Below are positions 3,418-19,687 of a DNA stretch of 26,415 nt, in pieces. The notes beneath the pieces are model-generated. The model saw only the letters and a list, made by a program, of their open reading frames with translations. It had not been told where the DNA came from and searched no databases. Both the position numbers and the translations under genes were made by a program. The stretch's first letter is position 1; each line of letters starts with the position of its first letter. Origin of the DNA: Prevotella sp. (GTDB taxonomy: Bacteria > Bacteroidota > Bacteroidia > Bacteroidales > Bacteroidaceae); NCBI GenBank assembly GCA_021203915.1, contig JAJQAI010000123.1, forward strand, positions 1 through 26,415, in the 5' to 3' direction.

Positions 3418-3448
3418 GTTCTTTACTTCCTTTCCTTTTGATATTATC

Positions 3449-3477
3449 ATTATAATATATTTTTTTGTATTTGTCAA
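3449..3477 (-). promoter_or_regulatory. Promoter of 3241-3417 gene
   Basis: Minus strand: TTGACA (3472-3477), 17 bp, TATAAT (3449-3454), between the 3501-3902 stop and the next cassette. Confidence 0.9.
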
Positions 3478-3500
3478 GCGGTTTCTGAAAAAAAATTTTT

Positions 3501-4065: not shown

Positions 4066-4088
4066 TTCTGAACCCCTCCTTTTCTTGT

Positions 4089-4117
4089 ACTATACCATAT
4101 TTTTTTTGATTTGTCAA
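4089..4117 (-). promoter_or_regulatory. Promoter of the 3892-4065 / 3501-3902 unit
   Basis: Minus strand: TTGACA (4112-4117), 17 bp, TATAGT (4089-4094). The perfect palindrome GGCGCCGGCGCC (4139-4150) lies 21 bp upstream of the -35. Confidence 0.88.
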
Positions 4118-4138
4118 GGGGTTTTGGGAAAAAAATGC

Positions 4139-4150
4139 GGCGCCGGCGCC
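4139..4150. promoter_or_regulatory. GC palindrome upstream of promoter
   Basis: Perfect 12-bp palindrome GGCGCCGGCGCC, centred 27.5 bp from the end of the -35 box of the promoter at 4089-4117. It follows a terminator that already serves the upstream gene. Confidence 0.5.
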
Positions 4151-4162
4151 CGCTTTGCGGCA

Positions 4163-4188
4163 CGAAAAAAGAGAGCTTGCGCTCTCTT
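4163..4188 (-). terminator. Terminator of 4188-4547 gene
   Basis: Stem AAGAGAGC/GCTCTCTT around TTGC (core 4171-4176 with 4181-4186), followed leftward by T6. The stop codon touches the stem. Confidence 0.88.
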
Positions 4189-4547
4189 CAATCCGTGGTT
4201 ACAATGGAGAAGTAAGCCTTCTTCTTAATCAGCTCCCGCTTGACAATTCCACTCTTCACGAGCTGAGTCATCAGAGCATTCAACTTCTGATTGCTGTACT
4301 GATCAAACTTCTCATCTTTTGACTGAAGTTCAGAAATGGTAATGGGTCCGAGAGTAGCAAGAGCGTCAACAATGTCGTTCTTGATTGCATCATTAGCAAT
4401 CTGTGTTGCGGTAGGGCGAGAGCTTGACGAACGCTTGTTTAACAGCTCCAGTTCGTGAGCAATGAAGTTGTGAACTTCAACCTTGTTTTCAAGATTAGAG
4501 TCATCAATGATACCGTCGAGAGTTGCAAACATTTCCTTTTTTGTCAT
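4188..4547 (-). CDS. Winged-helix protein, copy 1
   Basis: A 119-aa protein, ATG at 4547 behind AAAGGAGTG. The N-terminal helices (MTKKEMFATLDGIIDD and HNFIAHELELLNKR) are followed by a Ser-rich linker and a C-terminal winged helix (about 65-119). The latter has NDIVDALATLGPITISELQ, a recognition helix near SNQKLNALMTQLVKSG and a wing at KRELIKKKAYFSI. It is a paralog of 5988-6347 with the same length. Proteins of this kind occur in many Firmicutes phages and are thought to be small DNA-binding regulators. Two tandem promoters with a shared start-site element lie upstream. Autoregulation is an inference. A longer in-frame start at 4604 would read through the leader and lacks a ribosome binding site. 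Confidence 0.88.
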   Translation of the reverse strand: MTKKEMFATLDGIIDDSNLENKVEVHNFIAHELELLNKRSSSSRPTATQIANDAIKNDIVDALATLGPITISELQSKDEKFDQYSNQKLNALMTQLVKSGIVKRELIKKKAYFSIVTTD

Positions 4548-4615
4548 AATAGACACTCCTTTGAAAAATTTTTTTATTTGAAATGGGGATTGCGCTTCCC
4601 TCATCTCATGTAAGT

Positions 4616-4644
4616 ATTATAACATGGAGTGGAGGGTTTGTCAA
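4616..4644 (-). promoter_or_regulatory. Proximal promoter of 4188-4547
   Basis: Minus strand: TTGACA (4639-4644), 17 bp, TATAAT (4616-4621). The start-site element CATGAGATGAGGGAAG (4595-4610) begins five bases after the -10. Confidence 0.9.
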
Positions 4645-4711
4645 GCACTTTTTTAAAAAAGTTTAAGTTTTTTTAAATTGCTTTTTACTGCTTTCCTCAT
4701 CTCTTGGGTAT

Positions 4712-4740
4712 AGTATACCATAGCGGAACGCGGTTGTCAA
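4712..4740 (-). promoter_or_regulatory. Distal promoter of 4188-4547
   Basis: Minus strand: TTGACA (4735-4740), 17 bp, TATACT (4712-4717). The start-site element CAAGAGATGAGGAAAG (4691-4706) lies at the same place as in the proximal promoter. Confidence 0.88.
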
Positions 4741-4804
4741 GCACTTTTTTGATTTTGTTAAAAGTATTATATTTGTAGGCGGGCGGGGTGCGTCCGTGCC
4801 GGCG

Positions 4805-4832
4805 CAAAAAAGACCCGTAACGGGTCTTTTTG
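4805..4832. terminator. Bidirectional terminator after 4838-5047
   Basis: Stem AGACCCG/CGGGTCT (4811-4817 with 4821-4827) with A and T runs on both sides. Confidence 0.88.
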
Positions 4833-4837
4833 ATTAT

Positions 4838-5047
4838 TTATGTGAACAAACCATCTTCACAAGGGAACAGATACAAGGCGTTTGTAATATTATACGGCGG
4901 GTTAATTACATAGCTAATAGAGTGAGTATCAATGTAACCACAGTTTTCAAAACACTCATAATCTTCAACATTAGTGGGTACCGCAATCGGCAAGTTTTCA
5001 CATCCGTGTTCAATAGCCCATTCATACAGATCTTTTATTGTCATCAT
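4838..5047 (-). CDS. Small phage protein, MTIKDLYEWA family, copy 1
   Basis: A 69-aa acidic protein. The ATG at 5047 is followed by a second at 5044, and GGAGTG is upstream. The first 20 residues (TIKDLYEWAIEHGCENLPI) match the start of the rightward gene 9581-9778 (TFKEMYDRAVEMGIENQEI). The rest differs. Four Cys residues occur (CENL, ECFENC, PCED). The function is unknown. Its promoter and leader share a 28-base block with those of 9581-9778, so the regulatory region was copied together with the start of the gene. Confidence 0.82.
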   Translation of the reverse strand: MMTIKDLYEWAIEHGCENLPIAVPTNVEDYECFENCGYIDTHSISYVINPPYNITNALYLFPCEDGLFT

Positions 5048-5101
5048 AATACATTACACTCCTATTCTTTTGATTTTTTATCGTTCCCTTGAACAATTAT
5101 T

Positions 5102-5130
5102 AGTATAGCACTGGTAGGCAGTTTTGTCAA
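5102..5130 (-). promoter_or_regulatory. Promoter of 4838-5047
   Basis: Minus strand: TTGACA (5125-5130), 17 bp, TATACT (5102-5107). A 28-base stretch over the -10 and leader (5085-5112) is identical to 9517-9544 on the other strand. The palindrome GGGGCCGGCCCC (5152-5163) lies 21 bp upstream of the -35. Confidence 0.9.
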
Positions 5131-5151
5131 GCCTTTTTTGCAAAAAAAGTT

Positions 5152-5163
5152 GGGGCCGGCCCC
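5152..5163. promoter_or_regulatory. GC palindrome upstream of promoter
   Basis: Perfect 12-bp palindrome GGGGCCGGCCCC just after the stop of the exonuclease gene. A T7 run follows leftward, so it may double as a short terminator. Its centre is 27.5 bp from the end of the -35. Confidence 0.55.
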
Positions 5164-5164
5164 G

Positions 5165-5875
5165 CTAGCGCAAGGCCTCCTTGACTTCTAACTCTCTTCT
5201 CATTCCTTGCGGAATCCGCCAACATTGAGGGTCTATATCTGTTATCATTTGAATGTTAGTTGCGTAGCAATCAGCCATAATTTTAATTTCTATTTCTACA
5301 TCTTCAAGAGCTGTGTGAGACTCCACAAAATCAGGTGAATTTGTTAAAAAACTGTAACATGCTTCAGCACTTGTACTAACATTATTTGATTTACTAACAA
5401 AACCATTCTTTTTTGCGAATTTAATGTAACTTGTAGTATTCAATACTGTTTGACAAGCCATATTCCATACACAAAAGAATTGCGTTCCAAATGGAAACCA
5501 CCAGCGGATTAAAGATTTTAGACAATATCGGACAGCATTGTTCAGAGCTTTTTTATCGAATGCCATATTGTACGCTCCAACTTTCTTTACTTTGTATTCT
5601 TTCATGTCTTTCCACATCTGTTTTCTAATTGTCACAATACTCTTAATAATTCGTGTTCCATTTTTAATATCATCCCAATATTCAGGAATTTTATTGGCAA
5701 AGCAAGCCTTTCCAACAACATCTTCCATGTCAAGGAAGATTTCAGCTACGATAAAAGACCTTTCAAGATAAATATTTCCTTGTTCGTCACAAATAGCGTA
5801 TCCAATATCATACGGTAAAGGCTGTTCAATAGAATTTGCGGTTTCCGTGTCCACAATCATAAAATATTCTGTCAT
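5165..5875 (-). CDS. DEDDh 3'-5' exonuclease (DnaQ-like)
   Basis: A 236-aa protein of the DEDDh exonuclease fold, which removes nucleotides from 3' ends with two metal ions. The motifs are in order: Exo I VDTETA (Asp9, Glu11), Exo II GAYNMAFD (Asp107) and Exo III HTALED (His187, Asp192). ATG at 5875 follows AAAGGAGC. An in-frame upstream extension runs through the promoter and is rejected. A hydrophobic/aromatic stretch (IRWWFPFGTQFFCVWNMAC, about 123-141) sits between motifs II and III. A role in phage DNA replication, repair or host nucleic-acid breakdown is inferred. No polymerase domain is attached. It is the only gene in the left arm with a clear enzyme assignment, and it has its own promoter. 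Confidence 0.9.
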   Translation of the reverse strand: MTEYFMIVDTETANSIEQPLPYDIGYAICDEQGNIYLERSFIVAEIFLDMEDVVGKACFANKIPEYWDDIKNGTRIIKSIVTIRKQMWKDMKEYKVKKVGAYNMAFDKKALNNAVRYCLKSLIRWWFPFGTQFFCVWNMACQTVLNTTSYIKFAKKNGFVSKSNNVSTSAEACYSFLTNSPDFVESHTALEDVEIEIKIMADCYATNIQMITDIDPQCWRIPQGMRRELEVKEALR

Positions 5876-5905
5876 GTCTTTAGCTCCTTTTCTTTTGATA
5901 GTTTT

Positions 5906-5934
5906 ATAATACCACAGAACGGCGAGAATGTCAA
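5906..5934 (-). promoter_or_regulatory. Promoter of the exonuclease gene
   Basis: Minus strand: TTGACA (5929-5934), 17 bp, TATTAT (5906-5911). A GCCGGC centre (5959-5964) within a GC-rich block lies 27.5 bp from the end of the -35. Confidence 0.85.
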
Positions 5935-5971
5935 GCACTTTTTGCAATTTTTTGGCGGGCCGGCGCGCGGA

Positions 5972-5993
5972 GAGTAGGGGAGAACCCCTACTC
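5972..5993 (-). terminator. Hairpin at the end of 5988-6347
   Basis: A 9-bp perfect stem GAGTAGGGG/CCCCTACTC holds the TAG stop. No T run follows directly (GC-rich sequence, then A-rich), so termination may be incomplete. Confidence 0.6.
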
Positions 5994-6347
5994 AATCACT
6001 GCAGAGTAAAAACTCTTTTTCTTGACCACTTCTTTCTTTGCACGCCCATCTTTAATAAGCTGAGACAGCAAAGCCGTGATTTTCTGATTAGAATACTGAT
6101 CAAGATTTTCATCCCGTTTCTGAAGTTCTGTCACGGTAATGAAACCGCCGCTCTCAAGAAGGGAATCAAAAATTTCATTTTTCAATTTTTCATTCTCTTT
6201 CTGAGTTTTTGTCATTCCCTTGGAAGAACTCTTACGAGAGAGGAGTTCAATTTCATGCTTGATAAAATCGTGCATCTCGGTCTTGTTCTCAAGACTAGAA
6301 TCATCAACAATGGTATCCAGCAGAGCAAACATTTCTTTCTTAGTCAT
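5988..6347 (-). CDS. Winged-helix protein, copy 2
   Basis: A 119-aa paralog of 4188-4547. It shares MTKKEMFALLDTIVDDSSLE, EIELLSRKSSSK, a recognition helix near SNQKITALLSQLIKDG and a Lys-rich wing (KKEVVKKKSFYSAV). ATG at 6347 follows AAAGGAGTG. It is probably a small DNA-binding protein in the cytoplasm. As with its paralog, two tandem promoters each carry the same start-site element, which suggests both genes are controlled by one factor, perhaps by these proteins themselves. It is followed by a strong hairpin that includes its stop codon. Confidence 0.88.
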   Translation of the reverse strand: MTKKEMFALLDTIVDDSSLENKTEMHDFIKHEIELLSRKSSSKGMTKTQKENEKLKNEIFDSLLESGGFITVTELQKRDENLDQYSNQKITALLSQLIKDGRAKKEVVKKKSFYSAVIE

Positions 6348-6423
6348 AATAAAAACACTCCTTTAAAATTTTTTTTATTTGAGAGAGGAAAGGCTAACTT
6401 CCATTCCCTCACCTCATGTAAGT

Positions 6424-6452
6424 ATTATAACATGGGGTAAAAGGTTTGTCAA
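6424..6452 (-). promoter_or_regulatory. Proximal promoter of 5988-6347
   Basis: Minus strand: TTGACA (6447-6452), 17 bp, TATAAT (6424-6429). The start-site element CATGAGGTGAGGGAA (6404-6418) begins five bases after the -10. Confidence 0.9.
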
Positions 6453-6526
6453 GCATTTTTAAAAACTTTTTTCATTTTTTATTTCTTGCTTGCGGGCGTC
6501 GCTCCTTTCCTCATCTGACATACAAT

Positions 6527-6555
6527 AGTTTACCACAGAGGAGGCAGATTGTCAA
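6527..6555 (-). promoter_or_regulatory. Distal promoter of 5988-6347
   Basis: Minus strand: TTGACA (6550-6555), 17 bp, TAAACT (6527-6532). A start-site element (6505-6520, with CAGATGAGGAAAG) lies six bases after the -10. Confidence 0.75.
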
Positions 6556-7090
6556 CCCTTTTTTAAAAGTTATTTTTTTAACAAGCGGGCCCGGCGGTCT
6601 ACTCGAATGCAAAAAATCATTTTTAAAATTAGTATTTCTGTTTTATTTTTTCGTTATGGAAAAATAATAATTATTATTTGAGAAACTGAATTTTAAATAT
6701 GAGAAAATACAAGAATTTTCTTCCGTCTACTTAAAATGTATAGAAACTTGATTAAAGTATTGCGGATTTTTGTTTTTGCATAGAATGTAAAAGAAGTGTT
6801 ATAATTTTTGCAACTTAATATAATAAGCTATTTTACTGTGAAAATGAATGATGTTGCAAAGTATAGACAACAGGCTTCAAAACAAGAGAAAATGATAGCG
6901 GTTGGCGCAATGATTATATTTGTAGACGTATCATAAGTGTTGTAAGTGTTGTTCGAGGAGTGCGGAAGGTGACCGAGGCCGGCGTTGCGGGAACGCGCAT
7001 GACTATATTTTTCGACAGCCGCGTCCCGCGATAAACATAAGCAGAATGTCGAGAGATCTAATCAGTTCCGTTTCTTTATGCTCTTGATAA
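6556..7090. other. CDS-free gap, possible structured RNA
   Basis: No supported gene. A possible rightward promoter (TTGCAT 6776-6781, 18 bp, TATAAT 6800-6805) is followed by a 30-codon frame (6844-6936, MNDVAKYRQQASKQEKMIAV...) without a clear ribosome binding site. A strong GC-rich inverted repeat lies at 6987-7029. This could be a small RNA unit. A GGGCCC-centred GC block (6586-6596) lies upstream of the distal promoter of 5988-6347. Confidence 0.4.
6987..7029. other. Strong GC-rich inverted repeat
   Basis: GCGGGAACGCG (6987-6997) pairs with CGCGTCCCGC (7020-7029) with one bulged A, around a 22-base AT-rich loop. It is not next to any gene end and has no T run. Confidence 0.6.
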
Positions 7091-7130
7091 TAAAAAAAAT
7101 GATAGAGAAGAGTTTTGTTCTCTCTCTATC
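7091..7130 (-). terminator. Terminator of 7150-7581 gene
   Basis: Stem GATAGAGA/TCTCTATC (7101-7108 with 7123-7130), followed leftward by A then T8. Confidence 0.88.
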
Positions 7131-7149
7131 ATCTCTGTTGTTTATGTAT

Positions 7150-7581
7150 TCAGTCATAATACGGCTCTTTATTGACCATCAATATAATACACTCATCTAT
7201 TCCCCCGTCATAATATTTAGCGTACTCAGATAATTGCGGTTCAGATATTTCAATAGCAAAAAATTTATAAGAAAAATTATCGAGGGTAGCGGAAGTTTGA
7301 GCAGTGCGATAAGCTAAAGTGCTTTTTCGTATCCATTCTTTTGATTTAAACTGTAAAGAGTTTATCCAATCAATACATTCTTTGTCACTTTTGAATATTT
7401 TGACGATTGCTGTCGGTTTGCCATCTTCTTGAGACAGTTCAGGCAGTCCGCAAAATCGTCTGACTACTAACTGATACCTGCGAGTTTCTCTTTCATGACT
7501 TTCTGTGCTAGTAAGTCTTTTTTCACCAGTGGTTTCATCAATAACGTAATGCCGAGTAAGGGTTTCAACTGTCTCAATCAT
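7150..7581 (-). CDS. Phage protein of unknown function, copy 1 of a pair
   Basis: A 143-aa protein, start ATG at 7581 (MIETVETLTRHYVIDETTGE). Another ATG at 7593 sits right against AAGGAAAGG, too close to be preferred, and the paralog 8999-9394 supports the shorter start. Shared blocks are VxDExTGxKxL, a basic strand YxLVVxRF, FxxDxxCxxWxNSLxF and an end segment with FAIxxxEPQLxEYA. It is mixed alpha/beta and soluble, with no known motif. It has its own promoter and a strong terminator. Confidence 0.85.
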   Translation of the reverse strand: MIETVETLTRHYVIDETTGEKRLTSTESHERETRRYQLVVRRFCGLPELSQEDGKPTAIVKIFKSDKECIDWINSLQFKSKEWIRKSTLAYRTAQTSATLDNFSYKFFAIEISEPQLSEYAKYYDGGIDECIILMVNKEPYYD

Positions 7582-7621
7582 ATTTTTGTACATCCTTTCC
7601 TTATCTCTCTTGATGTAATAC

Positions 7622-7650
7622 AGTATATCATAAAATTGCTTGGAAATCAA
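7622..7650 (-). promoter_or_regulatory. Promoter of 7150-7581
   Basis: Minus strand: TTGATT (7645-7650), 17 bp, TATACT (7622-7627). Confidence 0.75.
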
Positions 7651-7811
7651 GCAAAACTGCATGAAATTTGTTATTTAAATATCATATAAGAGGGCATATA
7701 TAAATCTGAAAAATAAATCTATATATAAGGGGTCTATATATTAGCGTTCTCATGTTCAAGAATTGCGTCGCAAGGTATAGTCATGTCGAGTTTTATAGGC
7801 GCGAATTGACG

Positions 7812-7837
7812 GAAAATCTAGTCGTGCCTAGATTTTT
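7812..7837. terminator. Terminator-like hairpin after 7855-8304
   Basis: Perfect 9-bp stem AAAATCTAG/CTAGATTTT (7813-7821 with 7828-7836) around TCGTGC. The T run is short on either side. Confidence 0.7.
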
Positions 7838-7854
7838 AAGCGTGACTATGAATA

Positions 7855-8304
7855 TCAGCAGCCACACTCGGCGGCCGCTTTTCTTAAATTCTTTTCAGTT
7901 GCTATTGTTGCGCCGTCAAACTTAATCTGATACTTGATACCGTTCACTTCAACGTCGCCGCCTTTCCAAAAAGGTAAGCTATCTTTTTCCCACTTGACTC
8001 CATTCTCTTCAGTGAACAGGCGTTCGAATGTTTCGCCTTTATTGTACTTGCTATCCTTAATCAGACTATCTGAACCGACACAACGCGCTCCGGCTTTAAT
8101 CAAGGACTCTTTGAGATTTGTAGTCAATCTCATTCTTAACGTTGCATAACCGCCCCGCTTTGAAGAGGCATGATCTATTTTCATATACTGACTATCAAGT
8201 TCGTCGCATATGAACTCGTATACAGAGTGTTTATAACAGAATCCTAATACATACGAATCCGCCGCTGAAAACTGACTATAGGCTTCGACAAACTCCTTGA
8301 CCAT
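7855..8304 (-). CDS. Conserved phage protein, possible PD-(D/E)XK-like fold
   Basis: A 149-aa protein, ATG at 8304 (MVKEFVEAYSQFSAADSYVL) behind AAGGAGCG. I recognise the sequence type from Firmicutes phages but not a named function. The middle holds a basic region (SSKRGGYATLRMRLTTNLKE). The C-terminal part reads WEKDSLPFWKGGDVEVNGIK followed by YQIKFDGATI, so the G-D-V-(9)-Q-I-K spacing resembles the core strands of PD-(D/Q)XK nucleases. That is inference from a short motif. The end is Ala/Cys-rich (AAAECGC), and GCGGCCGC occurs in the last codons. It has its own promoter. Confidence 0.82.
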   Translation of the reverse strand: MVKEFVEAYSQFSAADSYVLGFCYKHSVYEFICDELDSQYMKIDHASSKRGGYATLRMRLTTNLKESLIKAGARCVGSDSLIKDSKYNKGETFERLFTEENGVKWEKDSLPFWKGGDVEVNGIKYQIKFDGATIATEKNLRKAAAECGC

Positions 8305-8334
8305 GATAACCGCTCCTTTCTTCAGTACCCCCCT

Positions 8335-8363
8335 AGTATAGCACAGTCCGGCGACCTTGTCAA
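8335..8363 (-). promoter_or_regulatory. Promoter of 7855-8304
   Basis: Minus strand: TTGACA (8358-8363), 17 bp, TATACT (8335-8340). Confidence 0.9.
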
Positions 8364-8568
8364 GCATTTAATCGTTAGATTTTTTGGAAAATGTGCAGTT
8401 GAAGTGTGACAATAGACAGAAAGTTTTGAAATTGTATACACAATACTTGCTTTTATGTCTGTGGGCGGCGCAACTAATTATAAACAAATTATAAACTTTT
8501 TCTAAATTAAAAATAAACTTTTGCGGGTAAATCTTAATTTTTTCTAAAAAATATTAATTTTTGATTAC

Positions 8569-8787
8569 GTTAATTTTTTAACAGACTTCACCGCTTCAGT
8601 GCTTTAACGCATTAAAGTTTTACACTGTTAAAGCGTTAATTTTTTAACAAACTTTGTTGCTTTACAGTGTTAAAGTGATGCTACTTTACAGCGCTAAAGT
8701 GTGTTAATTTTTTAACGAACTCTGCCGCTTTACAGTACTAAAGTATGTGAAATTTTTAACACACTTCGCCGCTTCACAGTGTTAAAG
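8569..8787. repeat. Array of four imperfect repeats built from two dyads
   Basis: Four units start at 8569, 8635, 8703 and 8747. Each opens with GTTAATTTTTTAAC (the last is GTGAAATTTTTAAC), followed by A-C-T-T/C, then a C/T-C/T-GCTT block and a second dyad of the type CTTTA-6 bases-TAAAG (8602-8617, 8660-8675, 8683-8700, 8728-8743, 8772-8787). The regular dyads suggest repeated protein-binding sites, iterons or RNA hairpins. Relatives of the first dyad continue to 11033. Confidence 0.85.
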
Positions 8788-8915
8788 TACACGTGATAAT
8801 CGAGAGCATTTACAAAATGTTAAACAATACCAGGCGTTTTTAGGAATTGCGCAACATTTTAATAAAATCAAAAATTGCGATTAAAAATCTCGACGCTCGC
8901 GATAAACCCAAAACT

Positions 8916-8937
8916 CGTGCGCGAGCGGCCGCGCACG
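8916..8937. other. GC-rich hairpin
   Basis: CGTGCGCG (8916-8923) and CGCGCACG (8930-8937) form a perfect 8-bp stem around AGCGGC, in a short GC-rich island. No T run follows. Confidence 0.6.
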
Positions 8938-8972
8938 ACCCGACGACTCTTGGCCTGCTCCCTTAGAACGCA

Positions 8973-9005
8973 ATAAAAAAAGGAGTGGGGATTTCTCCCT
9001 ACTCC
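8973..9005 (-). terminator. Terminator of 8999-9394
   Basis: Stem GGAGTGGGGA/TCCCTACTCC (8982-8991 with 8996-9005, one mismatch), then a leftward T7 run. The TAG stop is inside the stem. Confidence 0.85.
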
Positions 9006-9394
9006 CAATAAAATTCCTTGCTTACAGTGAGAGGAATGTACTTCTCACCACATTCCTTGTACGGGCTTGCATATTCCGCAAGCTGAGGTTCTTCAAGGCT
9101 GATTGCAAAAATCTCTTTAGTAAAGTTCTCAGCGGTGGCTCCTGTCATAGAATACGGTACATTGTCAAATTCCTGAAATTCTAAGGAGTTCAGCCATTCA
9201 AGGCACTGAGCATCAGTATCGAAAGTCTTAACTACATAATCAATACCATCTTCGCCTATACTAGCAAAACGCTTAACTACTAACCTATAATGCCTTTTAG
9301 AGGTTTCATATGACTGGGTGTCAAGAACCTTTTTCACGCCCGTGATTTCATCAACTACAATATGGAGACTGATAGTCTGAATGTAATCTAACAT
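8999..9394 (-). CDS. Phage protein of unknown function, copy 2 of a pair
   Basis: A 131-aa paralog of 7150-7581. The ATG at 9394 (MLDYIQTISLHIVVDEITG) sits about ten bases after AAAGGAAG. Common points are IVVDEITGVKKVL, a tract YRLVVKRFASI, CLEWLNSLEF and FAISLEEPQLAEYA. No enzyme motif is seen. It stands at the right edge of the leftward arm, back to back with the rightward gene 9581-9778. Its promoter and that of its neighbour form an inverted repeat. Confidence 0.85.
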   Translation of the reverse strand: MLDYIQTISLHIVVDEITGVKKVLDTQSYETSKRHYRLVVKRFASIGEDGIDYVVKTFDTDAQCLEWLNSLEFQEFDNVPYSMTGATAENFTKEIFAISLEEPQLAEYASPYKECGEKYIPLTVSKEFYWE

Positions 9395-9424
9395 TTTTAA
9401 TACTTCCTTTCTTTTGATGGTATT

Positions 9425-9453
9425 AGTATAGCATAGATTTCTGTATCTGTCAA
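9425..9453 (-). promoter_or_regulatory. Promoter of 8999-9394
   Basis: Minus strand: TTGACA (9448-9453), 17 bp, TATACT (9425-9430). Confidence 0.9.
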
Positions 9454-9498
9454 GCATTTTTATGTTTTTTTAAAAGAAAAAATTTTTTCAAAAAATGC

Positions 9499-9527
9499 TT
9501 GACAAATTTTATTTGGAGTGCTATACT
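9499..9527 (+). promoter_or_regulatory. Promoter of 9581-9778
   Basis: TTGACA (9499-9504), 17 bp, TATACT (9522-9527). The sequence AAAAAATGCTTGACA mirrors the start of the divergent promoter at 9425-9453. Confidence 0.92.
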
Positions 9528-9580
9528 AATAATTGTTCAAGGGAGAACAAAAACATAATCAAGCAAAGGAGTGAAGAATT

Positions 9581-9778
9581 ATGACGTTTAAAGAAATGTA
9601 TGACAGGGCTGTTGAGATGGGCATTGAAAATCAAGAGATTATTTGGGTGAATGAAGAGTATGATCACGATGATTGGCCCATAGATTATCACTATACTGTT
9701 AAGATGAGAAAGGATGGTAGAATAGTAAAGAATGAATATAAAGGTTATGAAGAGTTAACTCATCCGAGATGGGAGTGA
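9581..9778 (+). CDS. Small phage protein, MTIKDLYEWA family, copy 2
   Basis: A 65-aa acidic, Tyr-rich protein, ATG at 9581 after AAAGGAGTG. Its N-terminus (MTFKEMYDRAVEMGIENQEI) matches the start of 4838-5047. The rest is unlike it, with EEYDHDDWPIDYHYTVKMR and a C-terminal YKGYEELTHPRWE. It is the only rightward gene in the left half and ends in a strong terminator, so it is a free-standing cassette. The promoter and leader are partly identical to those of the paralog. The function is unknown. Confidence 0.85.
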   Translation: MTFKEMYDRAVEMGIENQEIIWVNEEYDHDDWPIDYHYTVKMRKDGRIVKNEYKGYEELTHPRWE

Positions 9779-9792
9779 TGTGAAATATAGAC

Positions 9793-9826
9793 AGAGCGGA
9801 GCAAATGTTCCGCTCTTCTTTTTTAG
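9793..9826 (+). terminator. Terminator of 9581-9778
   Basis: Stem AGAGCGGA/TCCGCTCT (9793-9800 with 9809-9816), then TCTTTTTT. Confidence 0.9.
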
Positions 9827-9834
9827 ACACGTTC

Positions 9835-11033
9835 GTTATATTTTTAACAAATTTAGTATCTCATTCCAGTTTTCTACGTTTAAAGTAATTTACTGAATGC
9901 GTGACGTTGGCAAGATAAGAGCGGAGTTTGTGAAACTCTTGACAAGGCCGCTTGTTTAGACGAGGTATCTCATCCAGAAAATTGTCTGATATTTTGGCAC
10001 GGAATACTGAATTGGCTACTCAAGAGATATAAAAATATCTACTTCTTAATGGGGTTCTTTAGTTGTAAATACTATTTTTTATTTTTAAGTTTGTTATTTA
10101 TATATTAAAGTTCTGGATTAAAAATGTCTGAATTGTCAGACTATTTGCACCCAACTTCCTCTACAAGTGTGCGCATGATAGTTTGTTAAATTCTTAACAA
10201 AGTCGCCCGCTTTAGATGAGTCGTGTAGTTTAAACAGTCTTGCTTTTTCTTTCATGCTATTCTTTTACTGTTGTAGAATGTCCGTGTTAAGACAGCCACG
10301 CTTTTGTGTGTAGGAGCGCCCATGACTATTTGATTAATATAGGCGCATGAGTTCTGGGTATGCAATACTCAAAGTTCTCTTACACTTATGGGTGTAATAG
10401 AATGTTGTTAGAAAATGATTGAAATTTAAACTAAAAGGTACGACAGTGATTAATAGATTCTGAATATTCAAAGGGAGTACTACAGATGTAGAGAAGAGTG
10501 TTAAATTTTTAACAAGCGTGGCCTGACATTGTTCTCATTCAAGAGACAGAGTGTTAAGAGATAGAAGGCGATCTGACTAAAGAGGTAGACAGATTGGGTC
10601 TAGTTTTACTCAAGGAGGTGAAAAGGTTTCTAATGTATTTCATGCTGTTAGTCATGTATCATCTTATCTATTGTATGCTATTATGTAATAATATTATTGT
10701 ATGTGTTATGTTGTTGTTATTATGTTATTATGTTATTATGTGTGTTGTTGTTGTGATTGCGTGTGTCGTCGCGTTGCGCCGTCGTGCGCGTCTGTGAGCG
10801 TGTCGCGCTGGTTGTCGTGTCTTCTACAGTTGTAGAGGAGTGCATCCAGGTAGTTACTTTTTTGCTGATTGTTACATTTTTAACAAAGTCTTTACTTCTT
10901 ACAAAAATGGGCGGTAGGTATAGGATACGAGGATACGAATAAAAACTCTACACTTGTACGAGTAAAAAATGTTATCAGAAAATTCTGATTTTTTATTTAC
11001 AAATGAGATAATTTACATTGTTATTTTTTTAAC
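9835..11033. repeat. Dispersed copies of the GTTAAATTTTTAAC dyad
   Basis: Copies at 9835-9848, 10185-10198, 10500-10513, 10871-10884 and 11020-11033, each followed by AA and often by A-C/G-T-C/T. They belong to the same family as the four units at 8569-8760. Spacing here is 150-370 bp. Confidence 0.8.
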
Positions 11034-12789: not shown

Positions 12790-13514
12790 CTTGTCCTAAA
12801 TGCGGAAAAGTCATGGAGGAAGGCCAGTTCTATATGGATCGCCATGGCAACCGCATGGATTTATGTAAGAAATGTCTTACTATGCACGTTGACAATTTCG
12901 ATGAAAACACTTATCTTTGGCTATTGGAAAAAGCGGATGTTCCTTATATCCCAGAATTATGGACCAGCATTCGCACTAAGGCTTATGCCAAAAACCCATT
13001 TGGTATGACGGGAATGTCTGTTTTTGGTAAGTACTTAGCGCAAATGCGGTTGAAGCAATATCATGACTATTCCTACGCGGATAGCGAGAAAGCCCGTGCG
13101 GATTATCGCGCACGCCACGGAGATGTGGGACCCCAAACAGTTGACCCTGCTTTTGAACAAGAGATGAAAGAAAAACTGGACGCGGGTGAAATTTCTCAGG
13201 CGCAATATCAAACGGTTGTTAGCACCGAGACCCAACACGCGGAAGAGCCCGTTTACGGCGCGCCGCCGGAAAATTTCTATAATGAGCAGAACTATATACG
13301 CGAGGATGAGCTTCCCGATCCTTCCGCCGATTTGACAGATGATGATAGAACTTATCTGGCTATGAAGTGGGGACGTCTGTATAGACCAGATGAATGGGTG
13401 GAGTTAGAACAAAAGTATAATGAAATGAAAGAGTCTTTCGATATACAAGATGCTGATACTGAGGGAACCTTGCTATTGATCTGCAAGACTTTCCTCAAAA
13501 TGAATCAGGCGGTT
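12777..13514 (+). CDS. Zn-finger protein in small-terminase position, exon 1
   Basis: First part (246 codons) of a protein just upstream of the large terminase, so probably the small terminase subunit or a packaging partner. The N-terminal Zn finger (IACPKCGK then LCKKC) requires translation from before the first ATG at 12813. The only good site is ATT at 12777, six bases after AAAGGGGG, so an AUU start is likely. The middle (FGMTGMSVFGKYLAQMRLKQ) and an acidic linker follow. The exon ends in LLICKTFLKMNQAV, and unspliced reading runs to a stop at 13583. Splicing to 13871 continues DMDGFQKLSRVYDS. The exact junction may be one base earlier on both sides. Function confidence is moderate; gene and intron confidence is high. 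Confidence 0.82.
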
Positions 13515-13870
13515 AACCAAGAAACATCGGCCGCCTTAAAACCTTGTGAACCTTATCAGGGGTGTGCGTTAATAACGTGCTAACGGTGAAACCTAAACTT
13601 TTTAAGCAAGGTAATACCGTGCCAAGTCACACTTGTTTAAACTATCTTTCTCAATTTTTAACTATAAAGGATATTATTGGAAAGAAGTACCTAGACAAAA
13701 ACAAAAGTGAAAGGTGTAGAGACTATCGAAAGCATAAATAGTTTTTGCTATTGAAGAAGCGAGTAGAGTACGTTTATTATTGATACGTAAATGGAAGAGC
13801 AAGGCTTCCTATAATGGAAGAATAGATAGTCCATACTTAATGAAAATTAAGAATAATATACGATATTGGG
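13515..13870 (+). other. Group I intron in the small-terminase-position gene
   Basis: About 356 nt. The 5' exon ends in T and the intron ends in G, as in group I introns. A P1 helix can form between exon AGGCGGTT and intron GGCCGCCT. Core pieces are ACGGTGAAACC (13583-13593) and GGTAATACCGTGCC (13610-13623), R element GTGTAGAGACTAT (13714-13726) and S element AGATAGTCC (13824-13832). P7 is GACTA (13721-13725) with TAGTC (13827-13831). No ORF is inside. Confidence 0.85.
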
Positions 13871-14302
13871 GATATGGATGGGTTCCAAAAATTGTCGCGG
13901 GTCTATGATTCATTGCGGAAATCCGCAAAATTCACGGCGGCACAAAACAAAGAAGAGAAAAGTAACTTTGTCGATTCTGTTGGCGAGTTGGTAGCCTTAT
14001 GCGAGCGGGAAGGCGGGTTCATTCCGCGCTATACGACGGACGTTCCGCAAGATATAGTGGATCAAACTTTAGCAGATATGAATAACTATACTTATAAACT
14101 AGTCACTCAGGATCTAGGCTTTGGTCAACAAATTGAGGATGCTCTGAAAAAGATTCAGATTCAAAAGGAGATGGAGGCATCAGAGGAGAACGATGTTACA
14201 GAGTTAGACGACTTTGATGTTGAAAACTACCTAGAGGAACAGCAAGACCAAAAGGATAAAGATCTATTGGTAGAGATAGGAGATGATGTGCGATCGCATT
14301 AA
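13871..14302 (+). CDS. Zn-finger protein in small-terminase position, exon 2
   Basis: Second exon (143 codons plus stop). It continues the protein with DMDGFQKLSRVYDSLRKSAK, FTAAQNKEEKSNFVDSVGEL and a helical domain ending IQIQKEMEASEE, followed by a very acidic tail. A separate start at the ATG of 13874 would have no ribosome binding site, and the region lacks the N-terminus seen before the intron, so it is read as an exon. Its last bases overlap the likely start of the large terminase, and AGGAG at 14278-14282 inside it may serve that gene. Confidence 0.82.
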   Translation, partial: DMDGFQKLSRVYDSLRKSAKFTAAQNKEEKSNFVDSVGELVALCEREGGFIPRYTTDVPQDIVDQTLADMNNYTYKLVTQDLGFGQQIEDALKKIQIQKEMEASEENDVTELDDFDVENYLEEQQDQKDKDLLVEIGDDVRSH

Positions 14303-14634
14303 AAGATTTATTAACCTTATCTGAGAGCAAGCAGTCCGCGCATAAGATTGGCATCTCAGAAGAGCGCATTAAAAACATAATGCCTGAGTTGCGGAACGCG
14401 ATTGCTTTTTACCGTGAATATCCTGACATCTTTGTTGAGCTATTGTGCGGCCACAATCCAGAAGACTTTCATTTATTCTTTTATCAGCGGGTGTTTTTAC
14501 GGGCGGTCATGCGTCACAGATATGCGTATGCCACTTTTCCGAGAGCGTATTCTAAATCGTTTCTGTCGGTTTTAGTGCTGATGCTTAGATGCATCCTATA
14601 CCCCGGCGCGCAACTGTTCGTGACCACGGGCGGT
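14293..14634 (+). CDS. terL: Large terminase subunit, exon 1
   Basis: N-terminal part of the packaging motor ATPase. The spliced protein is about 585 aa, a normal TerL length. Exon 1 codes for 114 residues. Coding signal (LKDLLTLSESKQSAHKIGIS) begins before the first ATG (14380); AUC at 14293, ten bases after AGGAG, is the likeliest start, because the frame is closed by TGA at 14284. The Walker A-like motif is FPRAYSKSF (Arg84, Lys88, Ser89). The exon ends PGAQLFVTTGG, and the next codon (Lys115) comes from exon 2. The motor pumps DNA into the prohead at the portal. The gene is split by three introns, all in conserved motifs. Confidence 0.9.
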
Positions 14635-14877
14635 AAACATTCTTGCCGCGTATTAATTCCGGAATTAAGCTGGAAGGCTAAACTAGAAGTAGCAAGCTAA
14701 TCAGAACCGAAGGCTGCGTTGAGCGCGGTCAGGGGCAACGCGTAGAAGGTGAAAAGATATAATCCTTCCAAGAGGCCGGGACATCTAAACAAGTAAAGTT
14801 GTAGATGAAAAGTTACGCTGAACTTATAGAAAACTATAAGAACTAAAGGATAAAAAGCCTTTAGGACAACAAAATTG
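14635..14877 (+). other. 243-nt intron in terL (intron A)
   Basis: Exact removal joins VTTGG to KEQATNITKD in frame. The 5' exon ends in T (GGCGGT) and the intron ends in G. GCGGT can pair with GCCGC in the intron (P1). AAGATATAATCC (14755-14766) resembles a group I S element, but no GACTA partner is seen. Several clear hairpins fill the 3' half (for example CTTATAG/CTATAAG and CTAAAGG/CCTTTAG). There is no ORF. Group I is the likeliest type; this is less certain than for the other introns. Confidence 0.75.
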
Positions 14878-15135
14878 AAAGAGCAAGCCACGAACATTAC
14901 CAAAGATAAAGTAGTAGAATTATGTAAGTTAATACCTGGATTGAAAAATGAAATTGATTGGCGTCCAGGAAAAACAAGAGAGTCTAAAGATATGGTCAGT
15001 TACCTCTTTAAGAACGGTAGTATCTTAGATATTATTGCGGCCAGGCAGTCATCTCGTGGTAAGAGAAAACATGGCGGTCTTATTGAGGAGTGTATTCTGG
15101 TAGACGGTACGACACTTAATGAAGTTATAATCCCT
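14878..15135 (+). CDS. terL: Large terminase subunit, exon 2
   Basis: 86 codons (residues 115-200): KEQATNITKDKVVELCKLIP, a central strand region with SILDIIAARQSSRGKRKHGG, and the Walker B-like LIEECILVDG (Glu184, Glu185). It ends TTLNEVIIP. A TTG at 14875 opens the frame but belongs to the intron end. Unspliced reading stops after 15159, so exon 3 is needed for motif III. Confidence 0.9.
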
Positions 15136-16204
15136 AGATGGTGGGGCTTAGTAGCGTGAGCTATTTTGAAAAACTGCGTGAACGCATGACAAAGCGGTGT
15201 GTATTTCACGATAAGGAATTGTAGGAAATGACAATGAAGAAATATGCTAACGGGGAAGAGTCAAGAATCCCGTGCCAAACTTAATTGGAGGTGTAGAGAC
15301 TATGAGTGATGAATGTAACTCAGTAGAACAGATTTTTGTCACTGTTCCAAGCGCGCAGCAACTAAATAAAATTTAAAATTTTTGGACAACAGTTGAAAAT
15401 AATATTATCCCAATAATGAAGTCATTATTGAGGGGTAAAAATCCCAAATATGCACTTCTTTAGAAAGGAAAAATATGTGGAAGAAATATTATTACAAAGA
15501 TAAAGAAACTGATTACAGTGTTTCAACAGAAGGAGAGGTTAGAAGGGACTCTACTAATCATATACTATCTCAATCTTATCAACAAGATTATAAATTTGTG
15601 ACTTTGACTATTGATAAAAAACAAAAAAGAATGAGAGTTCACAGATTAGTAGCAGAAACTTTTATGCAGAATCCTGAAAACAAACCTTATGTAAATCACA
15701 TTGATGGTAACCGTAGTAATAACAATATAGATAATTTAGAATGGGTGACTCCCGCAGAGAATGTACAGCATGCTGTTAATATTGGATTAATCAAAGGAAG
15801 TCGAGCTAAAGCTGTTATTCAATATAATTTAAATGGAGATCGAATGATGATTTTTTCTAGTGCAACTGAAGCTGCGGAAGAGACTGGCAGTTCGCAAAGT
15901 AAAATTACTATGTGCTGTCAAAAAAAGAGAGAAACTGCTAATGGGTATCAATGGCGGTATGCGGATGGAGTTCAAGATGTTGTAAAAGTAGAAGATAAGC
16001 ATATTACAGGCAAAAAAGTTGCTCAATGCGATGAAGATTGGAATATTTTAAATATATATCCAAGTTTTAGAGAAGCAGCACGAGCAGTGAATGGGACATC
16101 TTCCGCAATTAGTAGGGTTTGTAGCGGAACAAATATTAGACATAAAGGTTTTAAATGGAAGTTAGTTGAAGATATAGTCCAAGAAGATATATAGAAATCT
16201 TTTG
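15136..16204 (+). other. Group I intron with HNH ORF in terL (intron B)
   Basis: About 1069 nt. It joins EVIIP to TMNVSRR. The exon ends in T (CCCT) and the intron ends in G. Core: AACGGGGAAGAG and AATCCCGTGCC (about 15249-15276), R GTGTAGAGACTAT (15291-15303), S GAAGATATAGTCC (16168-16180). P7 is GACTA (15298-15302) with TAGTC (16175-16179). The homing endonuclease gene sits between R and S and overlaps S. Confidence 0.9.
15475..16194 (+). CDS. HNH homing endonuclease (intron-encoded)
   Basis: A 239-aa protein, ATG at 15475 after GAAAGGAA. It cuts intronless copies of terL so that the intron can spread. Domains: a NUMOD4-like start (DYSVSTEGEVRR, about 13-24), an HNH domain (about 55-92: VHRLVAETFMQNPE, VNHIDGNRSNNN, NLEWVT), then two NUMOD1-type DNA-binding repeats (about 112-162 and 180-231: VIQYNLNG...IFSSATEAAE and VAQCDEDW...IYPSFREAAR). 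The last residues Glu232-Val235 are encoded by the ribozyme S element. A hairpin (CAATAATGA/TCATTATTG, 15411-15430) lies upstream and may limit its translation. The reading is confident for family; target site is inferred from its location. Confidence 0.92.
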   Translation: MWKKYYYKDKETDYSVSTEGEVRRDSTNHILSQSYQQDYKFVTLTIDKKQKRMRVHRLVAETFMQNPENKPYVNHIDGNRSNNNIDNLEWVTPAENVQHAVNIGLIKGSRAKAVIQYNLNGDRMMIFSSATEAAEETGSSQSKITMCCQKKRETANGYQWRYADGVQDVVKVEDKHITGKKVAQCDEDWNILNIYPSFREAARAVNGTSSAISRVCSGTNIRHKGFKWKLVEDIVQEDI

Positions 16205-16281
16205 ACAATGAATGTGTCCAGACGATTACCAGGAGGCGGCGTCCGCGAAGAAGAGGTTCTGAATAAAAGTCAAATTTACGT
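16205..16281 (+). CDS. terL: Large terminase subunit, exon 3 (77 nt)
   Basis: A mini-exon of 25 codons plus two bases: TMNVSRRLPGGGVREEEV then LNKSQIY and the first two bases of Val226. The sequence matches the TerL stretch between Walker B and the TTAGW motif. It has no start of its own and lies between two introns. Confidence 0.88.
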
Positions 16282-16601
16282 TAAACATAGCGTCGTTATT
16301 TAGTGATAAATAATTGCAATCCATTGAATTGCTGGGAAACCCTGAGAGCTTTTCAAACTACAGCGCAAGAATGAAAAATGTCTAAGTGCGAATGTTTAAA
16401 AATTGAAAAGATTGGGCAATCAGCAGCCAAGCCGCGAATAGTGGAAGGTTCAACGACTATCCTTTATGGAGTACATTCAAGTGAATGGAAGCGGTGGACT
16501 CCCATAAAAAAAAATATGGGATGAAAATATAGTCTATTCTATATGGAAACATATAGCAGCGTAAGCGTGTATAATTTAGCGAACTATACAGAATATTTAA
16601 G
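16282..16601 (+). other. Group I intron in terL (intron C)
   Basis: 320 nt, no ORF. The exon ends TACGT and the intron ends in G. Conserved blocks are TGCTGGGAAACCCTGAG (about 16330-16346), GGGCAATCAGCAGCCAAGC (16414-16432), GAAGGTTCAACGACTATCC (16444-16462) and the S element AAAATATAGTC (16524-16534). P7 is GACTA (16455-16459) with TAGTC (16530-16534), and P8 may be CCCATA/TATGGG. This is the most canonical of the four introns. Confidence 0.95.
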
Positions 16602-17682
16602 AACTACGGCAGGATGGAAAAATTCCTTTGCATATGACAAACTTATTCAAACTCTTATTCAGCAAATTACTGATCCATCTGAGGCTATCGTTTTAGGCGG
16701 GACTTGGCGGATTCCCGTAATGGAGAAACTGCTTAGTCAGACCTTTATCCGAGACCTAAAGTTGGATGGAACTTATAATGAGGCTTCTTTTGCGCGTGAA
16801 TACGAGTCTGAATGGAGCGGGGATGCGGAAAACGCTTTCTTCTCTGCGGAGGTATTTGATAAACATAGGGTTTTATTACAACCAGAAGTTAAAAGAAATG
16901 AAAGAGTAAATAGTAAAGTATATTATATATTAGGTGTCGATGTCGGCCGAAAAGGATGCTCGACTGAAATATGCGTGTTTAAGGTCGCCCCGCAAGTGGA
17001 TGGCGCGGCGATTAAATCTTTAGTCAATTTGTATAGTTATGATGAAGAGCATTTTGAAACTCAAGCTATTAAAATTAAAAATTTATTTTTCCAATATGGA
17101 GCTAGGGCTATTGCAATAGATGGTAACGGTTTAGGTATTGGTTTAATTGATTATATGGTTAAGTCACAACAGAATACGGATCCTAATTCAGATTATGATA
17201 TTCTTCCGCCTTTTGGAGTCACCAATGATGCTGAGGGCTTTTATAAACAGTACCGCACTCCTGAAATGATGCAAGCGCATACTCAAGATGCTATGTATAT
17301 TATAAAAGCTAACGCTCCTGTTAACTCAGAAGCGTATACTTATGTACAGACACAACTATCCAGCGGAAAGATTAAATTTTTAATTGATGAGCAAACCGCA
17401 AAAGTGAAGCTGTTATCTACAAAAGTAGGGCAGCAAATGAGTCCTGATCAAAGAGCTGAGAGAATGAGACCTTTTACTTATACCACTATTTTGCGGGAAC
17501 AAATGCTTAACTTAGTAGAAGAACATGAAGGTTATAATATTATTCTTAAACAATCTAGTCATGGCATTAAAAAAGATAAGTTTTCAGCATTTTTATACGG
17601 GTTGTATTATATAAAGCAAGAAGAGAATAGAAGAACTCAACGTAGGGGTAGAGATTTAAGTAAGTTGATGTTGTTTAATTAA
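16602..17682 (+). CDS. terL: Large terminase subunit, exon 4
   Basis: C-terminal 359 residues plus the last base of Val226. It begins TTAGWKNSFAYDKL, the coupling motif directly after Walker B in the folded protein. The nuclease domain has YILGVDVGRKGCSTEI (first Asp) and AIAIDGNGLGIGLIDYM (second Asp), the two-metal RNase H-like fold that cuts the DNA concatemer. A frame from ATG 16543 exists in the intron but adds intron-coded residues. A terminator follows the stop. Confidence 0.92.
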
Positions 17683-17727
17683 AAAAAGTTGGGTAGAAAT
17701 AGAAAAAACTATTGGCAACTTTTTTAG
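17682..17727 (+). terminator. Terminator after terL
   Basis: A 10-bp stem AAAAAAGTTG/CAACTTTTTT (17682-17691 with 17716-17725) with a long loop. It may also act as a partial stop within the late operon. Confidence 0.7.
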
Positions 17728-17753: not shown

Positions 17754-18116
17754 ATGAGGGCTTCAAGAGGTGAAATAAAGATAGAAGAAATCTTGCAAGC
17801 GAATGGTCTAGTTTTTGAAGAAGAGTATATCTTTCCAGATCTAGTAGGAAATAGCGGGCGTCCATTACGGTTTGATTTTGCGGTGTTAGATGACGATGGT
17901 AATGTGGAGTTTCTCATTGAATATCAAGGTATCCAACATTATCAACCTAAATCTATTTTTGGCGGATTGACAGGTCTGAGAAAACAGCAATATAACGATA
18001 TGCTTAAAAGAGAGTATTGTCGAGATCATGGTTTAACTTTAGTTCTCGTTCCCTATTGGGACGAGGCTAAAGTAAATTATGATTATTTGATGCGGGCCGC
18101 AGGTTACGATCTTTGA
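17754..18116 (+). CDS. Free-standing PD-(D/E)XK-type nuclease
   Basis: A 120-aa protein after a perfect AAGGAGG, ATG at 17754. It has the layout of small Vsr/EDxHD or DUF-type PD-(D/E)XK endonucleases: an early Glu (GEIKIEEIL), LRFDFAVLDD (Asp), FLIEYQGIQHYQP (Glu-x-Gln and His) and a late LVLVPYWDE. Such genes are often free-standing homing endonucleases. Its place between terL and portal, in an intron-rich locus, fits a role in spreading an intron in trans or invading the late operon. That role is inferred. Confidence 0.82.
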   Translation: MRASRGEIKIEEILQANGLVFEEEYIFPDLVGNSGRPLRFDFAVLDDDGNVEFLIEYQGIQHYQPKSIFGGLTGLRKQQYNDMLKREYCRDHGLTLVLVPYWDEAKVNYDYLMRAAGYDL

Positions 18117-18151: not shown

Positions 18152-19687
18152 TTGATAGAAAATAGAAGATACAAAGCAGTGAATAAAGCTAGCCATCCTT
18201 CTCAAGATTTCTCCAAAATAAAAATAGGAGTGAAATCTCTAGATGACGCCGTCTTGGATGTCGGTACTTATAAAGCTACTAATCCAAGATTGGGAGATAA
18301 GAAAACAGTTCTTGATGCTATTGACCATTCTGATTATGATGCTATGCGGGACATATCAAATTTCTTTTATAAGACGTGCGGTATCTATTCGCGATTATGC
18401 AGATATTTAGCGTATCTATATAATTATGATTGGATGATTACCCCATATATGGTATCTAGTAATATCAAAACAGAAAAAGTATTAAACAATTTTAATAAAG
18501 CTCTGTCATATTTTGATAACTTTGGTATAAAACGTTTCTTTGGAGAAGTGGCGCTAAAAGTAGTCAAAAATGGATGCTATTACGGATATATAATTCGTGA
18601 CGACCCCTCGCGTATGATGATACAGGAACTCCCCTGTAAGTATTGTAGGTCGCGGTTTGAGGGGCGTGACCGCAGACCCGCAGTTGAGTTTAATATGAGT
18701 TATTTTGATAATTGTTTTTCCGACACCACTCAACGACAGCGGATTTTAAAAATGTTTCCTGACGAATTTACAAAAGGCTACAGATTATACAAAGAAGGTA
18801 AGCTGGTTGGGGATTTTCCTGGAGATACATCAGGATGGTATCTATTAGATATTGATAATACTTTAAAATTTAATTTAAATGGAGAAGATTATCCTATTTT
18901 TATTTCAGTTATTCCAGCTATAATTGATTTAGATGATGCAGAAGGTCTGTATAAAAAGAAGATGCAGCAACAGTTGCAAAAAATTATTATCCAACAAATG
19001 CCAGTAGACAAGAATGGAGATATGATATTTGATCCAGACGAGGTTCAAGTCCTACATTCTAATGCTGTTGGGATGCTCGGCAGAGCAGTTGGTGTTGATG
19101 TATTGACTACTTTTGCCGACGTCTCTGTTGCAGATATGTCAGACAAAACGGCGACAACGAACTCTACCAATGAACTTGATGCTATTAAGGACATCGTATT
19201 TGATGAGTCTGGCGTTTCCATGAATCAATTTAATACAGATGGTAATATTGCTCTTGAAAAGTCTATTTCTAATGATGAAGCCTTAATGTATAATTTAATA
19301 GTGCAGTTTGAGGACTTCTTAAATAGAGATTTGCTAAGAGATTTTAATACAAAACCTAAACAAATGTATTTTAAAGCGCAAATTCTTAAAACTACCATCT
19401 ATAACTATGAAGATTTAGCTAAGACTTATAAAGAGCAGACGCAACTTGGCTATTCTAAAATGCTACCTCAGATTGCCCTTGGGCAAAGTCAGAGTTCTAT
19501 CTTGGCGAACGCTCATTTTGAGAATGATATTTTAGATTTAGTTAACGTATTTATTCCGCCGCTGATGAGTTCTACTATGAATGCAGACGTTCTAGATAAA
19601 GACACCGATAAAGGTGCTGGTAGACAAGAGCTGGATGATGATGAAAAAAGCGAAAAAACTATAGCGAATAGGGAAAGTATGAATTAA
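18152..19687 (+). CDS. Portal protein
   Basis: A 511-aa protein that forms the ring at one capsid corner through which TerL pumps DNA and the tail attaches. Position after the terminase, size, and a portal-like composition with a helical core (YSRLCRYLAYLYNYDWMITP), GEVALKVVKNGCYYGYI and a C-terminal helix with QMYFKAQILKTTIYNYEDLA support this. The start is TTG at 18152, 12 bases after AAAGG. No ATG lies close by in frame. The acidic C-terminus (DKDTDKGAGRQELDDDEK) is typical for a disordered end. Confidence 0.88.
   Translation: MIENRRYKAVNKASHPSQDFSKIKIGVKSLDDAVLDVGTYKATNPRLGDKKTVLDAIDHSDYDAMRDISNFFYKTCGIYSRLCRYLAYLYNYDWMITPYMVSSNIKTEKVLNNFNKALSYFDNFGIKRFFGEVALKVVKNGCYYGYIIRDDPSRMMIQELPCKYCRSRFEGRDRRPAVEFNMSYFDNCFSDTTQRQRILKMFPDEFTKGYRLYKEGKLVGDFPGDTSGWYLLDIDNTLKFNLNGEDYPIFISVIPAIIDLDDAEGLYKKKMQQQLQKIIIQQMPVDKNGDMIFDPDEVQVLHSNAVGMLGRAVGVDVLTTFADVSVADMSDKTATTNSTNELDAIKDIVFDESGVSMNQFNTDGNIALEKSISNDEALMYNLIVQFEDFLNRDLLRDFNTKPKQMYFKAQILKTTIYNYEDLAKTYKEQTQLGYSKMLPQIALGQSQSSILANAHFENDILDLVNVFIPPLMSSTMNADVLDKDTDKGAGRQELDDDEKSEKTIANRESMN

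Follow-up and report, generated by a model that had tools for sequence, protein, structure and literature searches.

A phage large terminase gene in a Prevotella assembly with three predicted group I introns

The window analyzed here is a stretch of 26,415 nucleotides (nt) from a Prevotella sp. assembly (GCA_021203915.1, contig JAJQAI010000123.1, positions 1 to 26,415 of the forward strand; contig C27 in our numbering), and the subject of this work is a phage gene within it that encodes the large terminase subunit (TerL) in four separate pieces. We consider it about 93% probable that these pieces form a single TerL gene interrupted by three group I introns of homing origin, which are predicted to be spliced out to give one messenger RNA (mRNA). 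The three introns very probably remove themselves from the RNA. A preliminary description of the sequence had proposed three self-splicing introns in this gene, and that proposal is supported by the restored protein, by comparative group I folds, by the rules for group I splice sites, and by relatives in which the same sites are occupied or empty. From this evidence we infer that the transcript is spliced, with guanosine as the initiator, and that the introns have a history of homing. The assembly totals 1,635,774 bases in 336 contigs and is 71.7% complete.

Joining four exons restores one terminase protein

All four exons lie on the plus strand. Exon 1 (14293..14634, 342 nt), whose start at an ATC codon is provisional, was delimited from the joined translation and from homologues. 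Exon 2 (14878..15135) has 258 nt, a multiple of three, and contains the sequence GLIEEC, which we take to be a Walker-B-like motif. Exon 3 (16205..16281) was delimited from the joined translation, the alignment of homologues and the placing of the junctions, and has the length of 77 nt originally given for it. Exon 4 (16602..17682, 1081 nt including the stop codon) starts in TTAGW and matches phrog_2, terminase large subunit. The joined exons amount to 1758 nt in a single frame, comprising 585 codons and a stop; conserved residues are kept in all four exons, and there is no internal stop or frameshift. The division of TerL into four pieces by three inserts was thereby confirmed to the base. 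The placing of the first cut beside Walker A proved loose: FPRAYSKS, presumably the P-loop-like motif, occupies residues 82-89, and the first junction falls before residue 115. A list of open reading frames (ORFs) alone displays this gene as fragments.

Searched against PHROGs, the restored protein matched phrog_15503, phrog_24618 and phrog_2 (terminase large subunit, E 2.3e-22). The protein annotated as 'terminase large subunit' in Enterococcus phage H1 is 44.2% identical to it over 100% of its length, and a portal gene (18152-19687, phrog_2739, E 1.1e-75) lies downstream. TerL matched no Pfam family at E ≤ 0.001 and no PDB entry, either as a single sequence at E ≤ 1 or as a 10-member profile at E ≤ 0.1. 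The missing matches are a matter of the reference libraries, in which a match is no defining trait of TerL; the family is distant from those references.

The junctions were placed with a protein profile from 71 homologues, each uninterrupted over more than 520 residues. The fit to the protein left 5, 3 and 3 equivalent positions for junctions 1, 2 and 3, and in each set exactly one position combines a T at the exon end with a G at the intron end: 14634/14878, 15135/16205 and 16281/16602. These are the junctions first proposed, for which the T and G had already been noted. Possible pairings in the P1 helix, found by eye, would place a T:G pair at every cut: exon GCGGT (14630-14634) with GCCGC (14645-14649) for intron 1, exon CCCT (15132-15135) with GGGG (15143-15146) for intron 2, and exon ACGT (16278-16281) with GCGT for intron 3. 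A group I 5' exon ends in a U that pairs with G in P1, and the intron ends in G; this arrangement was found at all three sites. The third junction, at residue 226, cuts inside a codon (phase 2), and joining restores that codon.

Relatives were collected in two IMG/VR scans that gave 126 loci (the best 80 of 133 relatives and 46 further loci), which were grouped by shared exact sequence into 91 clusters. In uninterrupted homologues, the alignment is continuous across all three junction points. Among loci L001-L080 (73, 73 and 76 aligned rows at junctions 1, 2 and 3), two break this continuity, L020 and L021, each being interrupted at the second junction. Small gaps lie close by: one of six residues in L080, shortly ahead of the third junction, and one of a single residue in L027, L029 and L043, about 8 residues past the second.

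Comparative folds of the three inserts

Intron 3 (16282..16601, plus strand, 320 nt, no ORF of at least 60 residues) is recognized as a group I intron by Rfam. The model RF00028 matched 16272-16556 over its full length with 87.6 bits (E 2.2e-21); the alignment has non-standard positions in two helix regions, six in the first and a further two in one that comes later. The Rfam Intron_gpI check suggested for the gene gave a match for this intron and none for the other two. Because Rfam at E ≤ 1 found intron 3 alone, we built models from relatives' introns, R1 for intron 1 and R2 for intron 2, with the window sequence excluded from both.

Intron 1 (14635..14877, plus strand) has 243 nt and no ORF of at least 60 residues. 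It can be drawn as a group I fold with P3 formed by 14657-14662 and 14776-14781 and P7 by 14740-14744 and 14814-14818; a stem that follows the 5' strand of P7 resembles what we take to be P7.1 of subgroup IA. Members of the intron-1 family were collected from 17 IMG/VR stretches by an exact pattern, derived from a core that is common to the window, and 13 of the 19 members were kept for counting pairs. Those left out were L136 and L139 (the same contigs as L020 and L021), L144 and L147 (the same intron as L135), L148 (the same as L145), and L020, in which the 3' half was misaligned. Across the 13 sequences, 94.8% of 478 cells are paired and 21 of the 37 pairs change on both sides, a count equalled by none of 500 shuffles; controls in which the helices were slid gave 30-41% pairing. 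P3 and P7 are both 100% paired, with changes on both sides in 5/6 and 1/5 of their pairs, respectively. Pairing is 84.6% for P4 and P5 together and 88.0% for P8. Model R1 scored intron 1 of the window at 156.8 bits.

Intron 2 (15136..16204, plus strand, 1069 nt) is assigned to group I and is the one intron of the window TerL that encodes a homing endonuclease. Its ORF (15475..16194, plus strand) specifies a 239-residue HNH protein, similar to I-HmuI, with the Pfam domains NUMOD4, HNH_3 and NUMOD1 and a match to phrog_59 (E 1.9e-50). P7 pairs 15298-15302 with 16175-16179, so that its 3' strand lies inside the endonuclease ORF, which stops 10 nt before the end of the intron. Model R2, which covers the 5' part of the intron and was made from four relatives, matched 15136-15364 with 192.7 bits, beginning at the first base of the intron, and scored 71.3 bits on the RNA at the same site in Enterococcus phage EF1 (MF001358.1). 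When the loop is disregarded, five sequences, two of them nearly identical, have 98.2% of 164 cells paired (EF1 was omitted from this count, its 3' half being misaligned). Changes on both sides were found in 12 of 33 pairs, a number that none of 500 shuffles reached, and slid controls were 29-44% paired. In P3, 2/5 pairs change on both sides; P7 is 92% paired.

Occupied and empty sites in related phages

Among the 91 clusters, 68 have a near full-length uninterrupted TerL, 17 are interrupted and 6 are partial. Site 115, that of intron 1, is occupied in L009, L020 and L021. Introns are present at site 201 in L009, L010, L020, L021, L039, L041 and EF1, and at site 226 in L020, L021, L026, L095, L099, L102, L106 and contig C305. 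Overall, interruptions placed by script (T and G, best-scoring candidate) fall at nine residues: 85, 86, 115, 186, 201, 226, 231, 293 and 345. Others near 117, 238 and 520-530 were placed by eye or left unplaced. Automatic placing did not decide L102, L051, L122 and L128, the three sites of L020 or 2/3 sites of L127, in all of which the anchor frame was off; these junctions, like those of L070, L095 and L099, were also placed by eye or left unplaced. Of 20 interrupted records, 14 gave an RF00028 match at E ≤ 0.001 and 10 a match above the cut-off of that model, and these matches may lie anywhere in the record. TerL is thus a repeated landing place for such introns among these relatives, the group I nature being established for part of the inserts.

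The same sites hold introns with and without ORFs. At site 115, the TerL genes of L009 and L020 carry members of the intron-1 family with an ORF in the 5' part, identified by Pfam as LAGLIDADG_3 in L009. Forms without an ORF occur at site 201 in L009 and L010 (292 nt) and in EF1 (273 nt), and the ORF in the second intron of L020 resembles the HNH ORF of the window. The site-226 introns of L020, L099 and L102 are about 1.1 kb long with an ORF in the 5' part, which is GIY-YIG by Pfam in L020; the 368-nt intron at this site in L095 looks like a form with an eroded ORF.

Contig C305 (10,934 bases, TerL locus L149) comes from the same assembly as the window, belongs to a second phage of the same kind and serves as a natural control. 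Sites 115 and 201 are empty in its TerL, and the only intron is at 226. Intron 3 of the window and its C305 counterpart are 77.7% identical over 291 aligned bases, compared with 65.5% for a 3.9-kb stretch from 16578. Because other aligned pieces of the two contigs also reach 70-77%, this is a weak hint that the two phages may have exchanged intron 3.

Several side observations concern the relatives. L020 and L021 each have three TerL introns of about 1 kb, and the endonuclease-like ORFs that these contain differ in kind from one intron to the next. In L102, L106 and L127, introns of about 1.03 kb lie near residue 117, adjoining site 115, and by eye the last base of the exon seems to be C instead of T. 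A member of the intron-1 family is located at 3213-3366 of L133, just before a Walker-B-like GLVEEC in an apparently more distant TerL, and others were seen in several other phage sequences (both by eye). An early in-frame TAG is present in the otherwise aligned TerL of L006, L018, L032, L041, L070, L076 and L098, and an early in-frame TGA in that of L016, L033, L050 and L055; these are 11 of 21 hand-picked loci, which is not a frequency, and some of the codons stand at conserved Gln positions. One TerL clade may therefore include differing genetic codes.

Alternative explanations

Several findings weigh against the interpretation of TerL as a single gene with three spliced group I introns. 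Introns 1 and 2 had no Rfam match in 14200-17700 even at E ≤ 1. Nine of nine other loci with the intron-1 family (8 distinct intron sequences) likewise gave no match at the gathering score, and the Rfam model therefore seems insensitive to this family. The R1 score is support but not a fully independent test, the family having been gathered with a pattern common to the window and the intron-1 helices having been drawn with the window sequence in view. For both introns 1 and 2, the by-eye drawing of helices used the same sequences in which pairs were then counted, which favors the drawn helices over the slid controls. No covariation is seen in P7 of intron 2, where L009 and L010, 2/5 sequences, have a non-standard pair. 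Pfam has no match for the 191-residue ORF of the intron that C305 carries at site 226. Finally, the first codon of TerL is ATC (14293-14295), so that a damaged or misread start becomes more likely. ATG occupies this position in 79 of 81 distinct aligned starts, C305 has ATA, and the next in-frame ATG in exon 1 of the window is at 14380. Both unusual codons stand behind a plausible ribosome-binding stretch (by eye) and could be rare start codons or damage; within the literature searched, no published account of such starts was found.

The ATC codon is also an argument for the strongest competing explanation, in which the inserts are real group I introns of which at least one is inactive in this phage, with TerL produced inefficiently or the DNA stemming from a decaying prophage or a dead lineage. 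Another is that introns 1 and 3 are devoid of the endonuclease genes present in relatives. We regard this explanation as quite improbable, since the coding sequence is intact across all four exons, the window copies of introns 1 and 2 have standard pairs throughout the drawn helices, and T and G are in place at all three splice sites.

There is very little chance that the pieces are separate genes with assembling products or that the inserts are inteins. Split genes that function without splicing are known in phages in general, but exon 3 on its own would encode only about 25 residues, and the third junction reconstitutes a codon that is cut inside. Both readings were rejected; the insert lengths of 243, 1069 and 320 nt, which are not all multiples of three, and the 6, 12 and 11 stops that the TerL frame meets when read on into introns 1, 2 and 3 argue against inteins. 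An assembly chimera of different phages is about as improbable: the assembly does contain two related phage contigs, yet similar introns occupy the same sites in separate IMG/VR contigs, and a chimera would not give rise to group I splice sites.

Proposed mechanism and comparison with known phages

In our best explanation, TerL is a single gene of a phage whose relatives include large Firmicutes phages, and each of the three group I introns in its transcript would fold into a ribozyme. Free guanosine would be used to cut after the T of the upstream exon, the exons would then be joined, and one TerL mRNA would result. Homing driven by endonucleases of three families probably brought the introns to their separate sites, each within a strongly conserved stretch, with LAGLIDADG enzymes acting at 115, HNH enzymes at 201 and GIY-YIG enzymes at 226. 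Of the three types, this phage now has only the HNH gene. A bolder and, in our estimate, unlikely extension is that TerL in this phage clade is a long-lived stacking site: three introns, each first spread by a different endonuclease family, would be maintained side by side at fixed positions, and the need to splice them all would delay TerL to late infection as a packaging timer.

Genes of similar layout have been described. The excerpts of a study of Bastillevirinae (PMC11878797) call TerL introns 'not that frequent (5/52)', and some genes are split by two or three; for phiAGATE and SIOphi, TerL splicing was observed in infected cells, and an internal exon of the SIOphi TerL was skipped in an in vitro assay. 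As in the window, several group I introns have invaded TerL there, and part of them encode endonucleases. The Bastillevirinae are a different phage group, however, and the four TerL genes of that study with a VSR-type intron endonuclease (phrog_559) fall under phrog_675, in contrast to the phrog_15503, phrog_24618 and phrog_2 of the window TerL and the phrog_59 of its endonuclease. According to the sections consulted of a report on Jug phages (PMC12363816), group I introns divide terL into 2-3 fragments in some groups, and metatranscriptome reads support splicing for 37 of 76 predicted introns. These phages have genomes of 360-402 kb and predicted hosts in Bacteroides and/or Phocaeicola. The terL of ICP1 is described as spliced from RNA sequencing and reverse transcription PCR in the passages seen of PMC10448857, and one gene of phage Twort is reported to have three group I introns (Landthaler and Shub, 1999, as cited in PMC11878797), as the window TerL does. 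The EF1 TerL, 44.5% identical to that of the window, is interrupted at three places and shares site 201 with intron 2; its other sites are 231 and 293, not 115 and 226. Within the literature searched, no paper on the EF1 introns was found.

Given the excerpts on Bastillevirinae (PMC11878797) and Jug phages (PMC12363816) and the EF1 gene, the description of three introns in one phage gene as rare was overstated, and a TerL split by several group I introns is an already known layout. In the portions of the literature examined we did not find the three insertion sites listed; to that extent, the additions made here are the phage clade, the intron sites and the intron-1 family. Because the ORF list fragments TerL and Rfam recognizes one of its three introns, metagenome surveys can overlook or under-count the packaging genes of phages like this one. 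The clade also offers a natural series of empty sites, ORF-bearing introns and ORF-less introns at the same positions in one gene, which could be used to trace how homing endonucleases are acquired and lost, and to test whether the timing of phage packaging depends on stacked introns.

Neighboring genes

The count of three introns holds within TerL and stops short of a likely fourth. A provisional group I intron (about 13514..13860, plus strand) probably splits the upstream gene (12813-14302, phrog_3314), its 3' end being provisional. The pieces 12813-13583 and 13874-14302 match consecutive parts of phrog_3314 that are joined in many relatives, where the matched parts are in most cases 9 nt apart, and the phrog_3314-like gene of C305 is one ORF. 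RF00028 gave 33.5 bits at 13504-13852, below its cut-off, and R2 gave 17.2 bits (E 0.005); no intron at this site appeared in a plain Rfam scan at E ≤ 1. In L040, an insert with similar ends is found at the same place of the phrog_3314 gene. The candidate 5' site follows GCGGT and by eye pairs well as P1; the in-frame 3' site leaves A, not G, as the last intron base.

Directly after TerL lies a free-standing gene resembling homing endonucleases (17754..18116, plus strand; phrog_9084, E 9.6e-29), for which Pfam gave only DUF2726, below the cut-off of that family. The second phage contig likewise has such an ORF behind its TerL (5056-5415 of L149). The window is a phage region from about 11.7 kb onward, in which PHROGs names a sigma-factor-like gene, the phrog_3314 gene, TerL, the homing-endonuclease-like gene and the portal gene. 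ARAGORN found 0 tRNA genes in the window. Positions 1-11000 hold many short minus-strand ORFs with long spacers between them, some of which are similar to one another, for example 2059-2481 and 3501-3902, or 4188-4604 and 5988-6347.
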